NCBI GenBank assembly: GCA_011089965.1
Contig: JAANAU010000031.1
Span: 1-39,998, forward strand
DNA length: 39,998 nucleotides
Reading direction: 5' to 3'
Origin: Magnetococcales bacterium
Lineage (GTDB): Bacteria; Pseudomonadota; Magnetococcia; Magnetococcales; Magnetaquicoccaceae
Shown here: positions 26,468 through 35,557 of the stretch, piece by piece
Layout: every line of letters starts with the position of its first letter
Numbering within the stretch: position 1 is the first letter of the stretch
Translations under genes and position numbers: made by a program
The notes under the pieces: generated by a model
What the model was told of the DNA's origin: nothing
The model's input: the letters and a program-made list of their open reading frames with translations, nothing else
Databases searched by the model: none

Positions 26468-28306
26468 ATGTACAAAAATTTTTTGATGATTTTGTTGTGG
26501 CTGGCGGTATCGATTGGTGGTGAGGTTGATGCAGCCATGCCGATCTGCGTCCAGCCGATTTCGGATCAGACCTGGAGCGGCAGTGGGACGCAGAGTTTTC
26601 AATTTTCGGCTCTGACCTTTCGGGATGCGGATTGGCATGATCTGACCTATACTGCCAGACAGGCCGATGGTTTGCCGTTGCCCTCCTGGCTTGTGTTCCA
26701 TGCCATGACCCGGACTTTTTCGGGCAATCCGCCTGCTGGCGAGGCCAAGTTGTCGTTGAAGGTCACGGCCAACGATGGTCACAACGGGTATGGGATTTGT
26801 ACGTTCGGGCTGAATCTGGTGAATGTCAACGATCTGCCCGCCGTGCGCACGCCCATCGCCGATCAAGCCTGGCGGCGTGGCAGCAGTCAATCTTTTCAGT
26901 TTTCATCTTTGACCTTTCGGGATCGGGATGGCGACCGGTTGACCTACACGGCGCGTCAATCCAATGGGTCGGCCTTGCCGAGCTGGTTGCGTTTTTCTGC
27001 CAGTACCCGGACCTTTTCCGGCACCCCTCCGGCCTATGCCAGTACGTTGACCATTCGGGTCACCGCCAGAGATGGCACAGGAGGAGCGGTCAACGATACC
27101 TTTCTCTTGACTTTTGCCAACCGGGCACCGGTGGCGGTGCATGATGCCGTGACCGTGATTGCGGGTCAGCCGTTCACCGATACCTTGACCGCAACCGATG
27201 CAGATCGTCACCCTTTGACCTATCGGATCATCGCCCAGGCTGCCAGGGGACGGGTGGTGTTGACCAATACCGCCACCGGGGCCTTCACCTATACTCCGAA
27301 TGCCGGAGCGTTGGGGAGTGACAGTTTCACCTTTCGGGCCAACGATGGCCGGGTTGATTCCAATCTGGCCACGGTCACGGTGATGATCGTGCCAGCCAAT
27401 CGCGCGCCGGTGGCCAGTTCCGGAACTTTGACGGTTGTTTCCGGGGCGGTGACGAACGGTCAGTTGGCGGGGAGTGACGCCGATGGAGACGGGTTGACCT
27501 ATACTCTGCTCTCCAACGGCGCTCAGGGTGTGGTGACCCTGGATAATCCGGCCACCGGCGCTTACCGGTATCAACCAAACGTGAATGCCAGTGGTACGGA
27601 TCGCTTCACGTTTCAGGTGAGTGATGGCCGTGTTCTTTCGGAGGTGGCCACGGTGGAGATCACCCTGCTGTCGGTGACGCCAACCGGATTGGTGGGGTAT
27701 TATCCGTTTGCGGGCCATGCCCGTGATGAAAGCGGTCAGGGGCGTCATGGCACGGTCAATGGAGCGACCCTGACCACAGATCGCATCGGGGCTGCCAATC
27801 AGGCGTATCGTTTTGCCTCGACCGGGCATTGGATCGATACCGGTTATTCTCAGGCAACGGAATTGACCAATACCGCCACCATTGCCGCCTGGGTGCAGTC
27901 GGATCTGGCGGGCAGTGAAACGCCGACCCGCGTCTGGGCCAGCAATGGCGGGGGTTGGGGACGCAAAGGGTGGTCGTGCGGGGCCAAGCATGGGGATACC
28001 CGCAATGTGCGTTTTCACTGGCAATCGGCAGGGGACGTCATGCTGGATACCACCTCCCGGCCTTTGCAGGCCGGTCAATGGGTCCATGTGACCTGTGTGG
28101 CCACAGCCTCCAGATTGCAGATTTATATCAATGGGGTTTTGGATATCGAGACCCCGATCTCCACTCAGAGCGTGAACAACGGCAATCGGGTGTGGATCGG
28201 CTCCAATCCGGTGGTGAGCAGTGCCAACTTTGTGGGAGCGGTCGATGATCTGACCCTCTATAATCATGCCCTGACACCGGATGAAATCCGGCGACTGGTG
28301 GATTGA
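26468..28306 (+). CDS. Secreted cadherin/Ig-like and LamG-domain protein
   Basis: The 613-aa protein has an N-terminal signal peptide (MYKNFLMILLWLAVSIGGEVDA, about 1-22). The start at 26468 was chosen because GGAGGGG lies just upstream and the signal then begins directly. Two cadherin-like (dystroglycan-type) domains follow at about 29-120 and 128-218, each with DQxW...QSFQFSxLTFRD and LPSWLxFxAxTRTFSGxPP. Two Ig/cadherin-like modules (about 219-310 and 312-402) share RAPVA...DADxxxLTY, ATGAFTYTPN and SDSFTFxxxDGR. A LamG-like concanavalin fold lies at about 408-613 (GLVGYYPFAGHARDESGQGRHGTVNGA). Such modules bind Ca2+, sugars or other proteins at the surface. It lies 21 bp before the CHAT-TPR-ATPase gene. 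Confidence 0.85.
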   Translation: MYKNFLMILLWLAVSIGGEVDAAMPICVQPISDQTWSGSGTQSFQFSALTFRDADWHDLTYTARQADGLPLPSWLVFHAMTRTFSGNPPAGEAKLSLKVTANDGHNGYGICTFGLNLVNVNDLPAVRTPIADQAWRRGSSQSFQFSSLTFRDRDGDRLTYTARQSNGSALPSWLRFSASTRTFSGTPPAYASTLTIRVTARDGTGGAVNDTFLLTFANRAPVAVHDAVTVIAGQPFTDTLTATDADRHPLTYRIIAQAARGRVVLTNTATGAFTYTPNAGALGSDSFTFRANDGRVDSNLATVTVMIVPANRAPVASSGTLTVVSGAVTNGQLAGSDADGDGLTYTLLSNGAQGVVTLDNPATGAYRYQPNVNASGTDRFTFQVSDGRVLSEVATVEITLLSVTPTGLVGYYPFAGHARDESGQGRHGTVNGATLTTDRIGAANQAYRFASTGHWIDTGYSQATELTNTATIAAWVQSDLAGSETPTRVWASNGGGWGRKGWSCGAKHGDTRNVRFHWQSAGDVMLDTTSRPLQAGQWVHVTCVATASRLQIYINGVLDIETPISTQSVNNGNRVWIGSNPVVSSANFVGAVDDLTLYNHALTPDEIRRLVD

Positions 28307-28327: not shown

Positions 28328-31300
28328 ATGAACATAAAACCATGTGACCATTATGTTGTGGCGTTGCGGATTGCCGCGTTGGCAGAGCAGCGTTGGGAGA
28401 TCTCTCTGGTGGATCGGTTCTGTCAGCGCATCTCCATGCCGGTGGTTGTGACCTGGGAGCCGGGGGCGTTGGTGGCCGAGCTGGCCGTGATGGAAGAGCG
28501 CATCGAGATGGGCCGTGTGCTGGCTGCCCGTTTGCTGGTCGGTCCGGTGTTGACCGCCTGGCAGGAGAGTGTCCGGCAATGTGCTGCTGCACAACTCCCT
28601 TTGCGGCTCGATCTGATCCTGCCGGATCATGCGTCGGCCTGGGACGCATTGCCCTATGAGTGGCTGGCCGATGAGACGGGATTCTGGTTTCGGGATGGCC
28701 TCTCTGTGCTGGTGCGCACCTGTACCGGTCTGTCTTCGAACGAGCTGCGTCTGGAATCGGGGGACAGGCTGGGAATGATCTGGGCCAATCCCGGCAAGGC
28801 CGCCGCAGATCGGTTGCCGCCACTGGTGATCGATGCCCATTTGCTCACCATCCGGCAGTCGGCCACGCTGTTGGAGATGGTGGCGGTTGAGCCGTGCGCC
28901 ACTGCCACCTCTGAAACCCTTTGGAATTACTGTGAAACCAGACAACCGTTGCAGGTGGTGACGCTGCTGGCTCATGCCAAAGGCGCGGGTGGTGCCATGC
29001 TGCTCCATCAGGAGAGCAAATCCTTTCCCAATGATGCCGGTGAGGTGCTGGATTCCGAGGATCTCCAGGGTGCACTGCGTGCAGCGCAAACCGGGTTGTT
29101 GCTTGCATGGACCGGATCTGCCAGTCAGTTGCGGCCTGTGGATCCTGTGCTCGTGCGTACACTGTTGGCACCCGATGGCGGGGATCTGGCCATGGTGATC
29201 CATGTGGCGGGCAGTGTGGCCGTGGAGAGCGGACCGCGTTTGGCAGCCGCCTTTTTGCAGGAACTGGCGCGCAGCCACGGGGATCCGTTGGTGGCAGTGG
29301 CCCGGGTGCATGGCCGGGAGGAGCTGGCCGGGTTGGCTCTGGTGTGTCATGCCCGGCCTGGGCCGGGGGCAGTGCGTTCGTTTGCCCGTTATGCAGAGGA
29401 TTATGGTGCCCGGTTGCTCATTCCGGAGGTTTTTCACGTCCACGAGGGGTCGGAACCGGAGGAGAGCTGGCCGGATGTGGATCCGGTGGCCTTGGCCTGG
29501 TTGGGGGTGTTGGATCTGTTCCGGCAGGGTCTCCCGGTGGGGGTGTTGCTGCCGGTATTGGGAGAGGTCGGGGAGCTGGCGATTCTGGCGTTGTTGCGAA
29601 ACTGTTGGGTGAGGCTGGTTGCAGATGGAGAGCGTCTGATGGTGACGGAATCCGGGCGTGCATTGGTCCGGGGACAGGGGGAATTGCTGGAGTCGGCATG
29701 GTTGCAGCCACTGCTGAATCAGTGCGTGAGGCGTTTTCAGCAGGCCAAGGGTTTGGAGGATGTGGCCTGTGGTCAGGCCCTGGTGCGGGCGGATGAGGAG
29801 CTGGTTCTGGTATGGACCCGTTGGATGCAGAGTTCAGGTGCGGGCAGGGTGACCCCATCCATGGCCGAGGATCTGGTCAGGCTGGTCAGGGATTGGATCC
29901 GGCTGGTCCATGGGCAGCAGGAGGTGATGCCGGAGGTGTTGGCTGTGGCCCAGGGGGCGCTGTCGGTTGCCCAGGGAGTGAGTCGGCAGGCAGAGATCGA
30001 TGCCCATGGCTTGTTGGCCGATTTGTATCATCGTCTGGGGCGCTGGGAGGAGGCGGAACAGGGGTATCAGGTGCTTTTGGCCGAGAGTCGTCGGCTGGGG
30101 AATCGGGTGTGGGAAACCGAAGTTCTGTTGGAATTGAGTGATTTGTATGGTCAATGTGCCCGTTTGGAGGAGGCGGAGCGCGGGTATCAGGCAGCCCTGC
30201 AACTGGCGCGCCGTTTGTGTCTCAACCATGAGTTGACCATTTTGCAGGCGTTGGGAGCGTTGCATGGTCGGCAATCCCGTTGGGAAGAGGCCGAGCAGGT
30301 GTGGTTGGAGGCGCTTTCTTTGGCGCGTCGGGATGGGGAGTCTCTGTCCGAGGCCCGGCTGTTGGTGGCGTTGGGGCGGGCGGCCATGCGCGCCTGGCGT
30401 CATGAGGCGGCCAAGGAGCATTTTCTGGGGGCTTTGCCGTTGTTGCAGCAGTGCGAAGAGTCTCAGGGTGAGGCAGAGGTGTTGCGGGAGTTGGGGGTGA
30501 TCTCCTTGCGTACAGGTCATCCGCGCGATGCCGAAACCTATGCTGGGTTGGCCCGTTCCCGTTTTCAGCAATTGGGGGATCGGGCGGGTGAGGCCGATGT
30601 GTTGGAGTTGTCCGGTCAGATTCATCTGGCCGAACGGCGCGATGTTGAAGCGGTTCAGGCGCGGCGTGACTGTCGCACGCTGCGTCGGCAACTGCGGGTG
30701 GAGCAGGCGGTGCGTTGGCGTTCGTTGGTGGTGCGTGATTTCCGGGGGATCGAGGCGTTGACCTTGGATTGGTCGGCGGAACGTATCCCTTGGATGGTGG
30801 TGGCTGGCGCAAGCGGTTCTGGCAAGAGTGCGGTGTTGGAGGCGTTGTTGATGTTGGTATGGGCGGTGACACGTCATCGGGAGTTGTCGTCGTTGCAAGA
30901 GATGGTCTGGTCAGACCGGTTGATTCGTTTGGGGTGTCGGCAGGCGCGGATCAACGGGGTGGTGCAGGTCAAAGAGCAGACGTATGCGGTGGGTTTGGTT
31001 GTGCAGCGTACCGGTGGGTGGAGTCTGGAGGGGGATGTGGAGCCTTTGGCCCGGTTGTGGCAGGAGTCGGCGGGATTGGCTCATCCGGGTTGTGTGTTCG
31101 AGGCGGAAGCGCCGTTATGGATTGGGGATTGTTTGTATGTTCCGGCGGCGCGACGGATGATTCCGGGGGCGGTCTCTTTGGGTGCCGTGATGGCGGACGG
31201 TGAAGCTGCTCCAGGGGTGGATCGGTTCAAGCGTTTGGCGTTGCGTGCGTTGTTGGGCAGCACCGGGCAGTTTGCCGAACTGGATCCTTTGGAGGCGCGC

Positions 31301-31663
31301 GATGCGGTGCAGCAGTTGGATGCGTTATTGTTGAAGCATACCGGATATGTGCTGGATGCGGTGCGCAGCCGGCCAGGGCATGCTTTGGAGTTGTGGGTCA
31401 AGTCGGGTTCTGTGCAGGGATCCATGCCGTTTGATGCATTGAGTTTTGGTCAGCGGGATTTGGTTGGTTTGTTGTTTCAGATTTGGCATGCCACCCGTCA
31501 CACGCCGTTGCTGGTCATGGTGGATGGAGTGGGTGTGCAGTCATTGTTGGATCATCTGATGAGCGGGATGCCGGACAATCGGTATCTTGTGACCACGGGT
31601 TCCAAGTCATTGGTGGAGTGGGTGGCGGCTCGTGGCGGGGTCACGCTCACGTTGACCCGTTGA
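28328..31663 (+). CDS. CHAT-like / TPR / SMC-OLD-like ATPase fusion protein
   Basis: The 1111-aa protein has no signal peptide. Residues 1-350 follow the CHAT (caspase-like) layout: WDALPYEWL, FWFRDGLSVLVRT, VVTLLAHAKGAGGAMLL with candidate catalytic H216, and MVIHVAGSVAVESGPRLAAAFLQELARSHGDP. W261 (GLLLAWTG) stands where CHAT proteases have LxxC, so protease activity is doubtful. Residues about 545-790 are TPRs (GRWEEAEQGYQVLL). From 795 an SMC/OLD-type ATPase follows: LVVRDFRGIEALTLDW, Walker A GASGSGKS (K833), ABC-like signature LSFGQ (1038-1042) and Walker B LLVMVDG (D1066, with Gly at 1067 where Glu is expected). AGGAAG precedes the ATG. It is a likely partner of the upstream secreted protein; function unknown. 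Confidence 0.72.
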   Translation: MNIKPCDHYVVALRIAALAEQRWEISLVDRFCQRISMPVVVTWEPGALVAELAVMEERIEMGRVLAARLLVGPVLTAWQESVRQCAAAQLPLRLDLILPDHASAWDALPYEWLADETGFWFRDGLSVLVRTCTGLSSNELRLESGDRLGMIWANPGKAAADRLPPLVIDAHLLTIRQSATLLEMVAVEPCATATSETLWNYCETRQPLQVVTLLAHAKGAGGAMLLHQESKSFPNDAGEVLDSEDLQGALRAAQTGLLLAWTGSASQLRPVDPVLVRTLLAPDGGDLAMVIHVAGSVAVESGPRLAAAFLQELARSHGDPLVAVARVHGREELAGLALVCHARPGPGAVRSFARYAEDYGARLLIPEVFHVHEGSEPEESWPDVDPVALAWLGVLDLFRQGLPVGVLLPVLGEVGELAILALLRNCWVRLVADGERLMVTESGRALVRGQGELLESAWLQPLLNQCVRRFQQAKGLEDVACGQALVRADEELVLVWTRWMQSSGAGRVTPSMAEDLVRLVRDWIRLVHGQQEVMPEVLAVAQGALSVAQGVSRQAEIDAHGLLADLYHRLGRWEEAEQGYQVLLAESRRLGNRVWETEVLLELSDLYGQCARLEEAERGYQAALQLARRLCLNHELTILQALGALHGRQSRWEEAEQVWLEALSLARRDGESLSEARLLVALGRAAMRAWRHEAAKEHFLGALPLLQQCEESQGEAEVLRELGVISLRTGHPRDAETYAGLARSRFQQLGDRAGEADVLELSGQIHLAERRDVEAVQARRDCRTLRRQLRVEQAVRWRSLVVRDFRGIEALTLDWSAERIPWMVVAGASGSGKSAVLEALLMLVWAVTRHRELSSLQEMVWSDRLIRLGCRQARINGVVQVKEQTYAVGLVVQRTGGWSLEGDVEPLARLWQESAGLAHPGCVFEAEAPLWIGDCLYVPAARRMIPGAVSLGAVMADGEAAPGVDRFKRLALRALLGSTGQFAELDPLEARDAVQQLDALLLKHTGYVLDAVRSRPGHALELWVKSGSVQGSMPFDALSFGQRDLVGLLFQIWHATRHTPLLVMVDGVGVQSLLDHLMSGMPDNRYLVTTGSKSLVEWVAARGGVTLTLTR

Positions 31664-31675
31664 GCAGGCGAGCAT

Positions 31676-31867
31676 CAAATGATTGAAAAAAAAGAGGGGG
31701 TCTGGGGGATTCATCTCCCAGGGTTTTCGATTTTTCATGTTTAAACCAAAACCATTTTGGAATGTGGAATTTGTTTTGTTGGGGCGTTGCCCCAAACCCC
31801 ACCAAGGGCGTTGCCCTTGGATCCCACCAGGGGGGTAACCCCCCTGGATCCCTGATGATGGTGTATG
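31676..31867 (-). repeat. Modular intergenic repeat, copy I (with extra GCGTTG hairpins)
   Basis: A minus-oriented copy that starts 12 bp after the CHAT-TPR-ATPase stop. It has ATGATTGAAAAAAAAGAGGGGG, a slightly degraded CTGGGGGATTCATCTCCCAG hairpin, then a 90-bp block identical to 1-90 with GGGGCGTTGCCCC and AAGGGCGTTGCCCTT hairpins, then CCAGGGGGGTAACCCCCCTGG and the end GGATCCCTGATGATGGTGTATGG. A further 15-bp echo of the extended module, GAATCACCAAACAGC, occurs at about 31889. The rest of the gap to 32060 shows no gene; it must hold the promoter of the secretion operon, which I could not place. Confidence 0.88.
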
Positions 31868-32060: not shown

Positions 32061-33776
32061 ATGTTGCTTTCATGGGTGGCATCTAAAACTTCTTGGGGTA
32101 ATTTTTTGCGCAGCAACCTGCCGGGTTATCCGTCATGGGTTGCGGATTTATTCTCTGCCTCTTTGGCCATCAACCTCCTCTCTCTGGCTTTACCCCTCGT
32201 CCTCATCCAGGTCTATGATCGCATCATTCCCAATGCCAGTTTGCCGACCTTGGGAGTGCTGGTCGGGGGATGCGTGGTGGCCATCATCCTGGAAAATCTG
32301 TTACGCCTGGTCAGATCCTACATCAGCGGTTGGATGGCAACCCGATTTGAACATCTGGCTGGTTGCGAGGCCGTGGACAAGATTCTGGATGCGCCTCTGC
32401 CGATCTTTGAACGTCATGGGGTGGGGGTCCATTTGGAACGACTGCAAGCCCTTGATACTTTGCGGTCACTCTATGGGGGGCAGATTTTTCAGATTTTTCT
32501 GGATGTTCCTTTTGTTTTGTTGTATCTCCTGGTCATCGGCATTCTCGATGGACGGTTACTGTTGGCCTGTTTCGTGGTGCTGATTCTGTTTGGAGTTTTT
32601 TTTCATGTGTTCCGGCGCAATTTTGCCCGCTATCGTTCGGAACAGGTGGCCATCAATGATCGTCGTTACAATTTTTTGATCGAAATGCTCTCCGGCATTC
32701 ACCTGGTGAAGTCACAGGCCATGGAAGAGCAGATGTTGCGTCGTTACGAGCGATTGCAGGCGACTGCGGCGGAAAGCAACATGAACGTGAGTTTGTGGAG
32801 CGCCTTGCCGGTCAATGCCGGAGCATTCTTCAGTCAGGTCATGACTTTTGCCATGATCGGGGCCGGAGGTGAAAGCGTCATGAACGGCACCATGACTCTG
32901 GGTGTTTTGACCGCTGCCACCACGCTGGGCGGTCGGGTCATGCAACCGATTCAACAGGCGGCGGGCTACTGGTTGCGACTCTCCGATGCGGAAATTGCCC
33001 GCAAGCAGGTGGCGGAATTGGCAGCTCTGCCCACTGAGACCCCATCCGATGCCCTCCCTTTTCCCCCGGACATCCGGGGTGCTTTGCGTTTGAATCAAGT
33101 CAGCTTTCAATATCGTGAGGATGCCCCGTTCGTGATTGCCGGGGTCAATCTGGAGGTTCCCCCCATGGCCATGGTGGGAATCCGTTGCATGGGTTCGATG
33201 GGGATGACCACACTCTCTTTTTTGATGATGGGGATTCTCAAGCCCACATCCGGCAGTGTGTTTCTGGACGACTATGATCTTGCCGCTTGGGATCATCGAC
33301 AATTGCAAGGACGCATCGAATATCTTCCCCAGTATGGGGTTTTGTTTACCGGCACCATATTGGACAATTTGTGCATGTTCAATCCCAAACTCCGGGCGGC
33401 TGCCCTTGACGCTGCGGCCCTGTTCGATCTGGATGAGCAGATTGCCGCTCTGCCCAGAGGCTATGAAACCGAGATCACCGCTCAATCTGCCGCCAATCTG
33501 CCCATGGGTCTGGTGCAGCACATTGCCCTGACCCGGGCCTTTGTGGTGCGTCCCCGGGTGATTGTCTTCGACAAGGCCAACGCCTCCCTGGATCAGGACA
33601 GCCTGGAGGTTTTTATGAAATTTTTTCTGCGCATGAAAGGCCGTGCCACCCTGGTGTTGTTTACGGATAATTTCGCTCTGCTCGAAGCCTGTGACCAACG
33701 TTATACCCTGCACAATGGCACCTTGATTCCAGAGCCTCTGGAATCGTCCGCGCTTGTCGGGGAGAGACGGCCATGA
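32061..33776 (+). CDS. Type I secretion ABC half-transporter with degenerate ATPase
   Basis: The 571-aa protein is a membrane domain (about 25-310, six likely helices) plus nucleotide-binding domain (about 340-560), in the style of type I secretion permease/ATPases (LapB/PrtD group). The nucleotide domain keeps its overall shape, including the Q-loop region (EYLPQYGVLFTGTILDNL) and the CALP-type D-loop context. Its key residues are changed: Walker A is CMGSMGMTT with M382 for Lys, the signature is LPMGL (480-484), the Walker B Glu is K505 (VIVFDKA) and the switch His is D536 (LFTDN). It probably cannot hydrolyse ATP and is likely the silent half of a heterodimer with the ABC gene at 35612. 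Its stop overlaps the hemerythrin start by 4 bp. Confidence 0.85.
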   Translation: MLLSWVASKTSWGNFLRSNLPGYPSWVADLFSASLAINLLSLALPLVLIQVYDRIIPNASLPTLGVLVGGCVVAIILENLLRLVRSYISGWMATRFEHLAGCEAVDKILDAPLPIFERHGVGVHLERLQALDTLRSLYGGQIFQIFLDVPFVLLYLLVIGILDGRLLLACFVVLILFGVFFHVFRRNFARYRSEQVAINDRRYNFLIEMLSGIHLVKSQAMEEQMLRRYERLQATAAESNMNVSLWSALPVNAGAFFSQVMTFAMIGAGGESVMNGTMTLGVLTAATTLGGRVMQPIQQAAGYWLRLSDAEIARKQVAELAALPTETPSDALPFPPDIRGALRLNQVSFQYREDAPFVIAGVNLEVPPMAMVGIRCMGSMGMTTLSFLMMGILKPTSGSVFLDDYDLAAWDHRQLQGRIEYLPQYGVLFTGTILDNLCMFNPKLRAAALDAAALFDLDEQIAALPRGYETEITAQSAANLPMGLVQHIALTRAFVVRPRVIVFDKANASLDQDSLEVFMKFFLRMKGRATLVLFTDNFALLEACDQRYTLHNGTLIPEPLESSALVGERRP

Positions 33777-35557
33777 AAGAAGAGTCCTGGACCCGATGGA
33801 TTATTCAAACGGCCCGTTCATGGAAGGACATCTCGGAAGTGGTCCGTCAGACCGGGGTGGAGCATATTGACATCGATCATCGTCGTCTGATCGAAAGCGC
33901 CCTGGAGCTGAACCGGTTGATCGATGCCTTTGAGGATAACAGCATCGACCTGGATACCATTCGCCGGGAAGCGGTATTGCTGGAGCGTTTGCGGGATATT
34001 ACCGCTGCCCATTTCGAGTGGGAGGAACGGTTCATCCAGTTGCACGGCCTGCCCAATCTGGACAGACAGAAGGAGCAGCATAGAGCATTTCTGGTCATGG
34101 TGGATGGTCACCTGCGGGATTTCAAGGAAGGCCGGTTGTGGGTTTCGTTGTCTCTGAAGATGGCAGTGCTGCAATGGGTGGTGAATCATATCAACCATGT
34201 GGACTATGAAACCTTTTGCCTGGAAAACTGGGTGGAAAGGGTTTTGACCAATGCCGCCAAATGGCAGGATGTGGCGGATGTCATCAAACCAACCGGGTTG
34301 CATCTCTTTGATCAGGAACACAAAGATCTGGTGGTTCTCACCCTGCGGATGAACGAGTGGATTGAGCGGTATCAAAGCGCCGGCCACACGGAAGAGTCCC
34401 GGGAACCTGTCGCCACTCTGCTCCACCGCATCCGTCAATATGCGGAGGCCCATTTCAGTCATGAGGAACATTTTATCGCCCGCTACCAGATCCCAAACCA
34501 AAAGGATCAGGTTGCTAGTCATCATGTTTTTTTGACGACCGTTCAACAACTGGAAGATCGCATTCGTCAGGGAGAGAAGGTCGATCCCCGGCAGGTGAAA
34601 AAGCTGGTCATGAACTGGTGGGTTGAACACATCAACCGGATCGATTATGCCTCCTTCCGGCTGGAGAACTGGACCGACCGGTTGCTTGGGGTGTCCACCT
34701 CCTGGGACAACCTGGAGGAGTTGATCAAATCGACCGGTTTGGAAAGATTGGATCAAGAACATATGGATCTGATCATGCTGACCCTGGAGGCCAATGAGGT
34801 GGTGGAGGCCTGTCAACGGGGCAATCTGGATCCTGCCCTCAAGTCTCAGGGGATTGCCATTCTGCATCATCTGCACGAGTTTTCCGCGGCCCATTTTCAG
34901 GGTGAAGAGGCGTTCATCCGGACAAACGGCATTCCCGGTTATGAACGCCAGCAGCAGGAGCATCGGCGTTTTCTGGAGATGGTGCAACAACTGGAAGCGG
35001 ACATGGCCAATGGTCGTATCGTCTTTTCCTCCCAGATCAAGACCAGGATTTTGTCCTGGTGGATGCATCACATCAACGAGGTGGATTACAACACCTTCCG
35101 CATCGAACGGTGGGCCGGGGCCATGATCCTGGGTGCCAGGGAGTATCAGGATCTTGCCAATCTGGTCAAGCCCAGCGGCCTGGAGTGGGTGGATGCGGAT
35201 CATCGGCAGCTTGTCGAGGTGACCCTGAAGGCCTGTCGTCAGCTTGTGGATCGGGATCCGGGCGTGGTCAGGGGTCTGGAAGAGGTGATGCGTTTTTCCA
35301 GCGACCATTTCCATCGAGAGGAAAATTATTTTGTTGAGCATGGATTGTGGGGAATCGAGATCCATCGCGACCAGCACCAGGAGTTTCTGGCGACCATGCG
35401 GACCATGATCGACCATTCCGACCTGAACCGTCCGGAGGAGATCGAAACATTCCGGTTGTGGATTGTGCAGTGGTGGGTTCAGCACATCAATGAGGCGGAT
35501 TATCGTGCTTTCCAACAGATCGAGCGCATTGGAAAAGGTCATGATCAGGCAGAATGA
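33773..35557 (+). CDS. Tetra-hemerythrin protein inside the secretion operon
   Basis: This 594-aa soluble protein consists of four tandem bacteriohemerythrin domains at about 25-150, 175-300, 325-445 and 465-585. Each has the four-helix ligand pattern. Domain 1 has H36, H80, E84, H103, H139 and D144. Domain 4 has the full set: H477, H512, E516, H531, H535, H571 and D576. In domains 1-3 the first His of HxxxH is Gln (Q99 in domain 1), so one iron ligand is missing. Hemerythrins bind O2 at a di-iron site and serve in sensing, storage or iron handling. No signal peptide or output domain is seen. The ATGA overlap with the upstream ABC gene implies coupled translation and a secretion-linked role. 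Confidence 0.93.
   Translation: MKEESWTRWIIQTARSWKDISEVVRQTGVEHIDIDHRRLIESALELNRLIDAFEDNSIDLDTIRREAVLLERLRDITAAHFEWEERFIQLHGLPNLDRQKEQHRAFLVMVDGHLRDFKEGRLWVSLSLKMAVLQWVVNHINHVDYETFCLENWVERVLTNAAKWQDVADVIKPTGLHLFDQEHKDLVVLTLRMNEWIERYQSAGHTEESREPVATLLHRIRQYAEAHFSHEEHFIARYQIPNQKDQVASHHVFLTTVQQLEDRIRQGEKVDPRQVKKLVMNWWVEHINRIDYASFRLENWTDRLLGVSTSWDNLEELIKSTGLERLDQEHMDLIMLTLEANEVVEACQRGNLDPALKSQGIAILHHLHEFSAAHFQGEEAFIRTNGIPGYERQQQEHRRFLEMVQQLEADMANGRIVFSSQIKTRILSWWMHHINEVDYNTFRIERWAGAMILGAREYQDLANLVKPSGLEWVDADHRQLVEVTLKACRQLVDRDPGVVRGLEEVMRFSSDHFHREENYFVEHGLWGIEIHRDQHQEFLATMRTMIDHSDLNRPEEIETFRLWIVQWWVQHINEADYRAFQQIERIGKGHDQAE

Follow-up and report, generated by a model that had tools for sequence, protein, structure and literature searches.

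The gene studied here lies in a 39,998-nucleotide stretch of DNA from a Magnetococcales bacterium (the window) and occupies a single open frame of 1111 codons without interruption (Table 1). The base composition was coding-like in every segment of this frame, with GC contents of about 0.64-0.73, 0.42-0.48 and 0.68-0.76 at the three codon positions, and the third-position values of its four segments (0.68 to 0.76) matched those of neighbouring genes such as PriA. The initial annotation had described a three-part CHAT, TPR and ATPase chain of 1111 amino acids; the architecture and the intact frame were both upheld, while the column of the catalytic Cys needed correction, and a STAND remnant and further losses in the ATPase had to be added.

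The upstream gene encodes a predicted secreted protein with Ig, cadherin and LamG domains, and it is possibly co-transcribed with the CHAT gene. Downstream on the same strand, a type I secretion cluster (ABC1, tetra-hemerythrin, ABC2 and HlyD) follows after a 397-bp gap that carries a repeat element. An exact 22-bp repeat (TTGGGGCGTTGCCCCAAACCCC), of which none would be expected by chance, was found at 36-57 and 31779-31800 (+), the second copy being located just downstream of the CHAT gene. Membership of the CHAT gene in a secretion operon was also considered and was rejected on synteny, since other Magnetococcia genomes have the conserved cluster but not the CHAT-TPR-ATPase gene; in the closest cluster-bearing genome (G016) the contig stops 309 bp upstream and is hence silent on its presence there. 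None of the ten neighbours scanned was identified as a recognised defence gene, a CRISPR gene or a vWA-MoxR, VMAP or iSTAND component.

The host genome (3.66 Mb, 80 contigs) is 98.9% complete. The order and class search sets consisted of the same 48 genomes, Magnetococcales bacterium DCbin4 among them, and the phylum set of 398; no orthologue of the fused gene was obtained from either the 48 or the 398. Genome contigs yielded no other fused copy and matched only the DCbin4 relative, viral contigs yielded none, and neither did plasmids, where one search matched the TPR region only. The initial annotation had taken a lack of conserved neighbours as an argument against its reading, and this argument holds in part: the adjacent secretion genes are conserved elsewhere without the CHAT gene, and the genomes searched yielded no second copy whose neighbours might be compared. 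In the literature search, no described example of this exact make-up (CHAT, STAND remnant, TPR and AriA-like ATPase) was found.

Table 1. Coordinates of the gene, its domains and motifs, and the upstream gene in the window
Feature	Position	Strand	Basis or remark
Upstream gene, secreted Ig/cadherin/LamG protein (likely start ATG 26468)	26468..28306	+	ends 21 bp before CHAT gene
Whole gene, 1111 aa: CHAT - STAND remnant - TPR - AriA-like ATPase	28328..31663	+	ORF and domain comparisons
CHAT-fold domain, residues 1-360	28328..29407	+	hhalign 97.8%, E 9e-13; controls; 30% identity to CHAT of DCbin4 relative (L032/L059)
His216, CHAT catalytic His position, kept	28973..28975	+	alignment
Gly263, column of CHAT catalytic Cys	29114..29116	+	alignment
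Segment 386-552, matching region after NTPase core of CHAT-STAND-TPR relative	29483..29983	+	blastp E 5e-5, segment alone
TPR array, about residues 552-775	29981..30652	+	Pfam TPR_12 E 1e-13 and others
AriA-like ABC/OLD-type ATPase domain, residues 786-1097, degenerate	30683..31618	+	101 bits, stand-alone family profile; tree
Walker A GASGSGKS (827-834), kept	30806..30829	+	alignment
ABC signature LSFGQ (1038-1042), kept	31439..31453	+	alignment
Walker B LVMVDG (1062-1067): Asp1066 kept, Glu replaced by Gly1067, D-loop after it deleted	31511..31528	+	alignment
Switch motif T-G-S (1090-1092) instead of T-H-S	31595..31603	+	alignment

The CHAT-fold N-terminus and the STAND remnant

The CHAT part escaped detection by the Pfam, NCBIfam and PADLOC scans, and profile-profile comparison was needed to reveal it. 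When a two-sequence profile of the window protein and its DCbin4 relative was compared by hhalign with 20 CHAT proteins of the same class, the match covered 279 columns, and column-shuffled and unrelated controls stayed at or below 0.7%; the window protein alone reached 92.8% against CHAT proteins that bear the catalytic Cys. The CHAT fold proposed for the N-terminus was thus borne out at the level of sequence profiles. Strong PF12770-type CHAT proteins of the class gave no alignment with this region (hhalign 0.1%), so the domain is assigned, as far as the profiles indicate, to a more divergent CHAT type. A PDB search with the CHAT profile returned no match, and the AF2 model of residues 1-372, for which the alignment held two sequences, was too low in confidence to be used (pLDDT 45).

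As for the catalytic pair, His216 is present, and the Cys column holds Gly263, because of which the N-terminus is assigned as a predicted CHAT pseudoprotease and not a CHAT protease. The initial annotation had rightly noted the absence of the Cys and had placed a Trp (W261) at its position; the correct column lies two residues further on, and Trp261 is common to the Cys-bearing relative, which reads LWSC. CHAT domains in which the catalytic His and Cys are both missing were also seen in six Magnetococcia genomes (L102, L103, L104, L105, L106 and L107), where they apparently form a separate, putatively inactive group.

The sole close relative found was a CHAT-STAND-TPR protein of 1135 amino acids from Magnetococcales bacterium DCbin4 (PEAN01000047.1, listed as both L059 and L032). 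The two proteins share 30% identity over residues 7-358, and residues 389-714 of the window protein aligned to 665-998 of the relative, so that the CHAT domain, the segment following the NTPase and the TPRs all have counterparts. However, the relative carries about 290 extra residues with a P-loop (GLPGIGKTE) between CHAT and the counterpart of segment 386-552, which gave weak Pfam matches to nSTAND3, AAA_16 and NB-ARC, as for a STAND-type NTPase. This core with its Walker A is absent between CHAT and TPR in the window protein, where only the following segment is left; by eye, the segment may resemble a winged-helix region. The relative further differs in keeping both the His and the Cys of CHAT, in lacking the C-terminal AriA-like ATPase, and in being followed by a metallophosphoesterase-like gene. 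The TPRs named in the initial annotation were readily recovered by Pfam, and the STAND-derived segment had gone unnoticed in it, as had the loss of the switch His (TTGS, G1091) and the deletion of the D-loop in the ATPase.

TPR and CHAT also occur in one chain in TPR-CHAT (Csx29 of Craspase, type III-E CRISPR), but in the window protein the CHAT domain lies at the N-terminus and has no Cys, the chain also carries an ATPase, and none of the neighbours scanned was identified as a CRISPR gene. Csx29 is described as an active protease that binds Cas7-11 (PMC9729208, PMC10028731, PMC9935389). A likeness in kind may also be seen in bacterial conflict systems, in which inactive caspase-like and STAND domains are common (Kaur et al., 2020, PMC7159879); there too, inactive peptidase and NTPase domains (inactive caspase-like effectors, iSTAND) are kept as binding modules, but the ATPase of the window protein is of another class.

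The AriA-like ATPase and its stand-alone relatives

The C-terminal domain scored 101 bits against a profile of 11 stand-alone proteins (350-475 amino acids) from the same class, with the window protein left out of the profile; the best PADLOC AriAB model gave 26 bits. In the tree, it nested inside the stand-alone family with modest node support (0.68-0.95), and its branch was the longest, at 2.1 substitutions per site against at most 0.9 for the others. A PDB search with the family matched PtuA and AriA; the AF2 model of the domain, made from the single sequence, was too low in confidence to be used (pLDDT 42). The earlier call of an SMC/OLD-like ATPase therefore stood and could be sharpened to AriA-like, that is, by sequence membership, OLD class 4.

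ABC-type ATPases have one set of residues for ATP binding and formation of the ATP sandwich and another for hydrolysis. The 11 stand-alone members share 78 invariant columns. The window protein has the family residue in 31 of these, G830, G832, K833, L1038, S1039, G1041, Q1042 and D1066 among them, and differs in 47; the losses include the Walker B Glu (G1067), the switch His (G1091) and the D-loop. On the general picture of ABC-type ATPases, the kept residues would be those of ATP binding and the ATP sandwich, and the lost ones those of hydrolysis. Residue alignment placed K833 (Walker A), LSFGQ (1038-1042), D1066 and G1067 exactly as the initial annotation had them. In Cran1, a member of the OLD family, activity survived Walker B substitutions (PMC12796447), so that such changes need not be fatal to an ATPase of this family.

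At E 1e-20, the AriA-like family comprised members of the same order only, in a search of the 398 phylum genomes. Most of the stand-alone genes have an AriB-like TOPRIM gene of about 300 amino acids directly after them, whose products keep TOPRIM-like LFVEG and DRD motifs with their E and DxD residues. These AriB-like genes matched DUF4435 or PADLOC AriB/AriAB models, and their AriA-like partners matched PADLOC AriA models. Judged by gene order and these matches, the arrangement is PARIS-like; PARIS belongs to OLD class 4 (PMC12796447), and its AriA is a hexameric sensor that holds and sequesters AriB (PMC12409363; PMC11455837). PARIS-like AriA/AriB pairs were seen at L034, L035, L037, L038, L039 (AriB intact), L041, L042 and L043, and AriB remnants at L036 and L033; among the sampled genomes, the pairs are apparently restricted to Magnetococcia. 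Shared synteny with the pair near PriA in G005 (L034) was also considered and was dropped, as the gene orders differ.

The window gene shares its ATPase lineage with these stand-alone genes, but it is fused to CHAT-TPR and lacks AriB, the Walker B Glu, the D-loop and the switch His. Its next same-strand gene is an ABC exporter instead of an AriB TOPRIM gene, and the host genome yielded neither an AriB-like match nor one to a second AriA-like gene. The link to defence drawn in the initial annotation is consequently supported for the lineage of the ATPase, whose relatives lie beside AriB-like TOPRIM genes, but not for the locus, which has neither AriB nor recognised defence neighbours.

Possible function and rival explanations

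We suggest, with about an even chance of being right, that the protein is a chimeric double pseudoenzyme that arose by exaptation; it would bind ATP and oligomerise without hydrolysis and serve as a sensor, decoy or dominant-negative scaffold. The initial annotation's proposal of a binding-only switch or scaffold is in line with the evidence, as are the domain make-up and the altered active sites that it described. The ancestor would have been a CHAT-STAND-TPR protein like that of DCbin4; we infer that its STAND NTPase core was lost, that an AriA-like ATPase, which is the sensor half of PARIS-like AriA/AriB toxin systems, was joined at the C-terminus without the AriB nuclease, and that catalysis was then lost in both enzyme domains with the frame staying open, in this order. 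In the present protein, the ATPase would bind ATP through Walker A, Asp1066 and LSFGQ and form ATP-held oligomers, and its hydrolysis is presumably poor or nil because the Glu, the D-loop and the switch His are missing. The TPRs may bind a client or a trigger; the CHAT domain, having no Cys, may hold a peptide or partner and leave it uncut. As read from the sequence, the most likely mode of action would be binding, through ATP-dependent self-assembly, client recognition by the TPRs and a non-cleaving CHAT. After a branch of 2.1 substitutions per site, a frame that is still this long and coding-like throughout speaks for the protein having been under selection. As there is a single copy, constraint on the gene is not measurable, and together with the low confidence of both AF2 models (pLDDT 45 and 42) this keeps our confidence moderate.

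The main rival explanation, which we hold to be possible and on the doubtful side, is that of a fused conflict-system gene with both enzymes dead, drifting as a relic whose frame is not yet broken. Relaxed selection is possible because 47 of the 78 family-invariant columns have changed; the longest branch in the ATPase tree, damage to both catalytic centres, the singleton status among 48 class and 398 phylum genomes, the decay of AriB in other family members and an adjacent secretion cluster unrelated to the gene are likewise what such drift would leave. However, all 1111 codons remain open at very high divergence, the four segments all have a normal codon-position composition, and random decay would not predict the retention of ATP-binding motifs alongside the loss of hydrolysis residues. 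It appears improbable that the protein is a regulatory pseudo-subunit, whose CHAT, lacking the Cys, would partner an active CHAT protease of the cell or compete with it. The host genome does contain four other CHAT genes, all 46 Magnetococcia genomes examined have 1-12 each, and the class possesses a separate set of CHAT domains without His and Cys; yet the N-terminal CHAT differs widely from the strong PF12770-type domains, and the gene was not seen to be linked to any other CHAT gene. An accessory or housekeeping role for the adjacent type I secretion cluster or the upstream Ig/LamG protein is suggested by the 21-bp spacing upstream and by the order of same-strand genes downstream, but it is very improbable, given that the cluster occurs elsewhere without the gene and that the gap with the repeat element lies in between. 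We know of no secretion role for CHAT, TPR or AriA-like ATPase domains.

Within the preferred reading of a chimeric double pseudoenzyme, a bolder proposal, which we think rather unlikely, is an exchange of the NTPase engine. The sensor ATPase of a toxin system, locked with ATP bound, would have taken the place of the STAND core, and the product would be an immune adaptor or decoy that neither hydrolyses ATP nor cleaves. Should the protein be functional, PARIS-type sensor ATPases would be reusable as binding-only modules inside CHAT-TPR receptors, and catalytic loss in both enzyme domains would be compatible with a maintained frame. The comparisons also suggest a family of PARIS-like AriA/AriB pairs that is apparently confined to Magnetococcia, and that CHAT catalysis has been lost repeatedly in this class.

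The secretion cluster itself showed two further features. Its first ABC exporter subunit (32061-33776, +) looks degenerate by eye, with Walker A GIRCMGSMGMTT (Lys replaced by Met), signature LPMGL and Walker B VIVFDKANASLD. The next gene (33773-35557, +) encodes four hemerythrin domains between the two secretion ABC subunits, and this ABC1 - poly-hemerythrin - ABC2 placement is conserved in several other Magnetococcia genomes.
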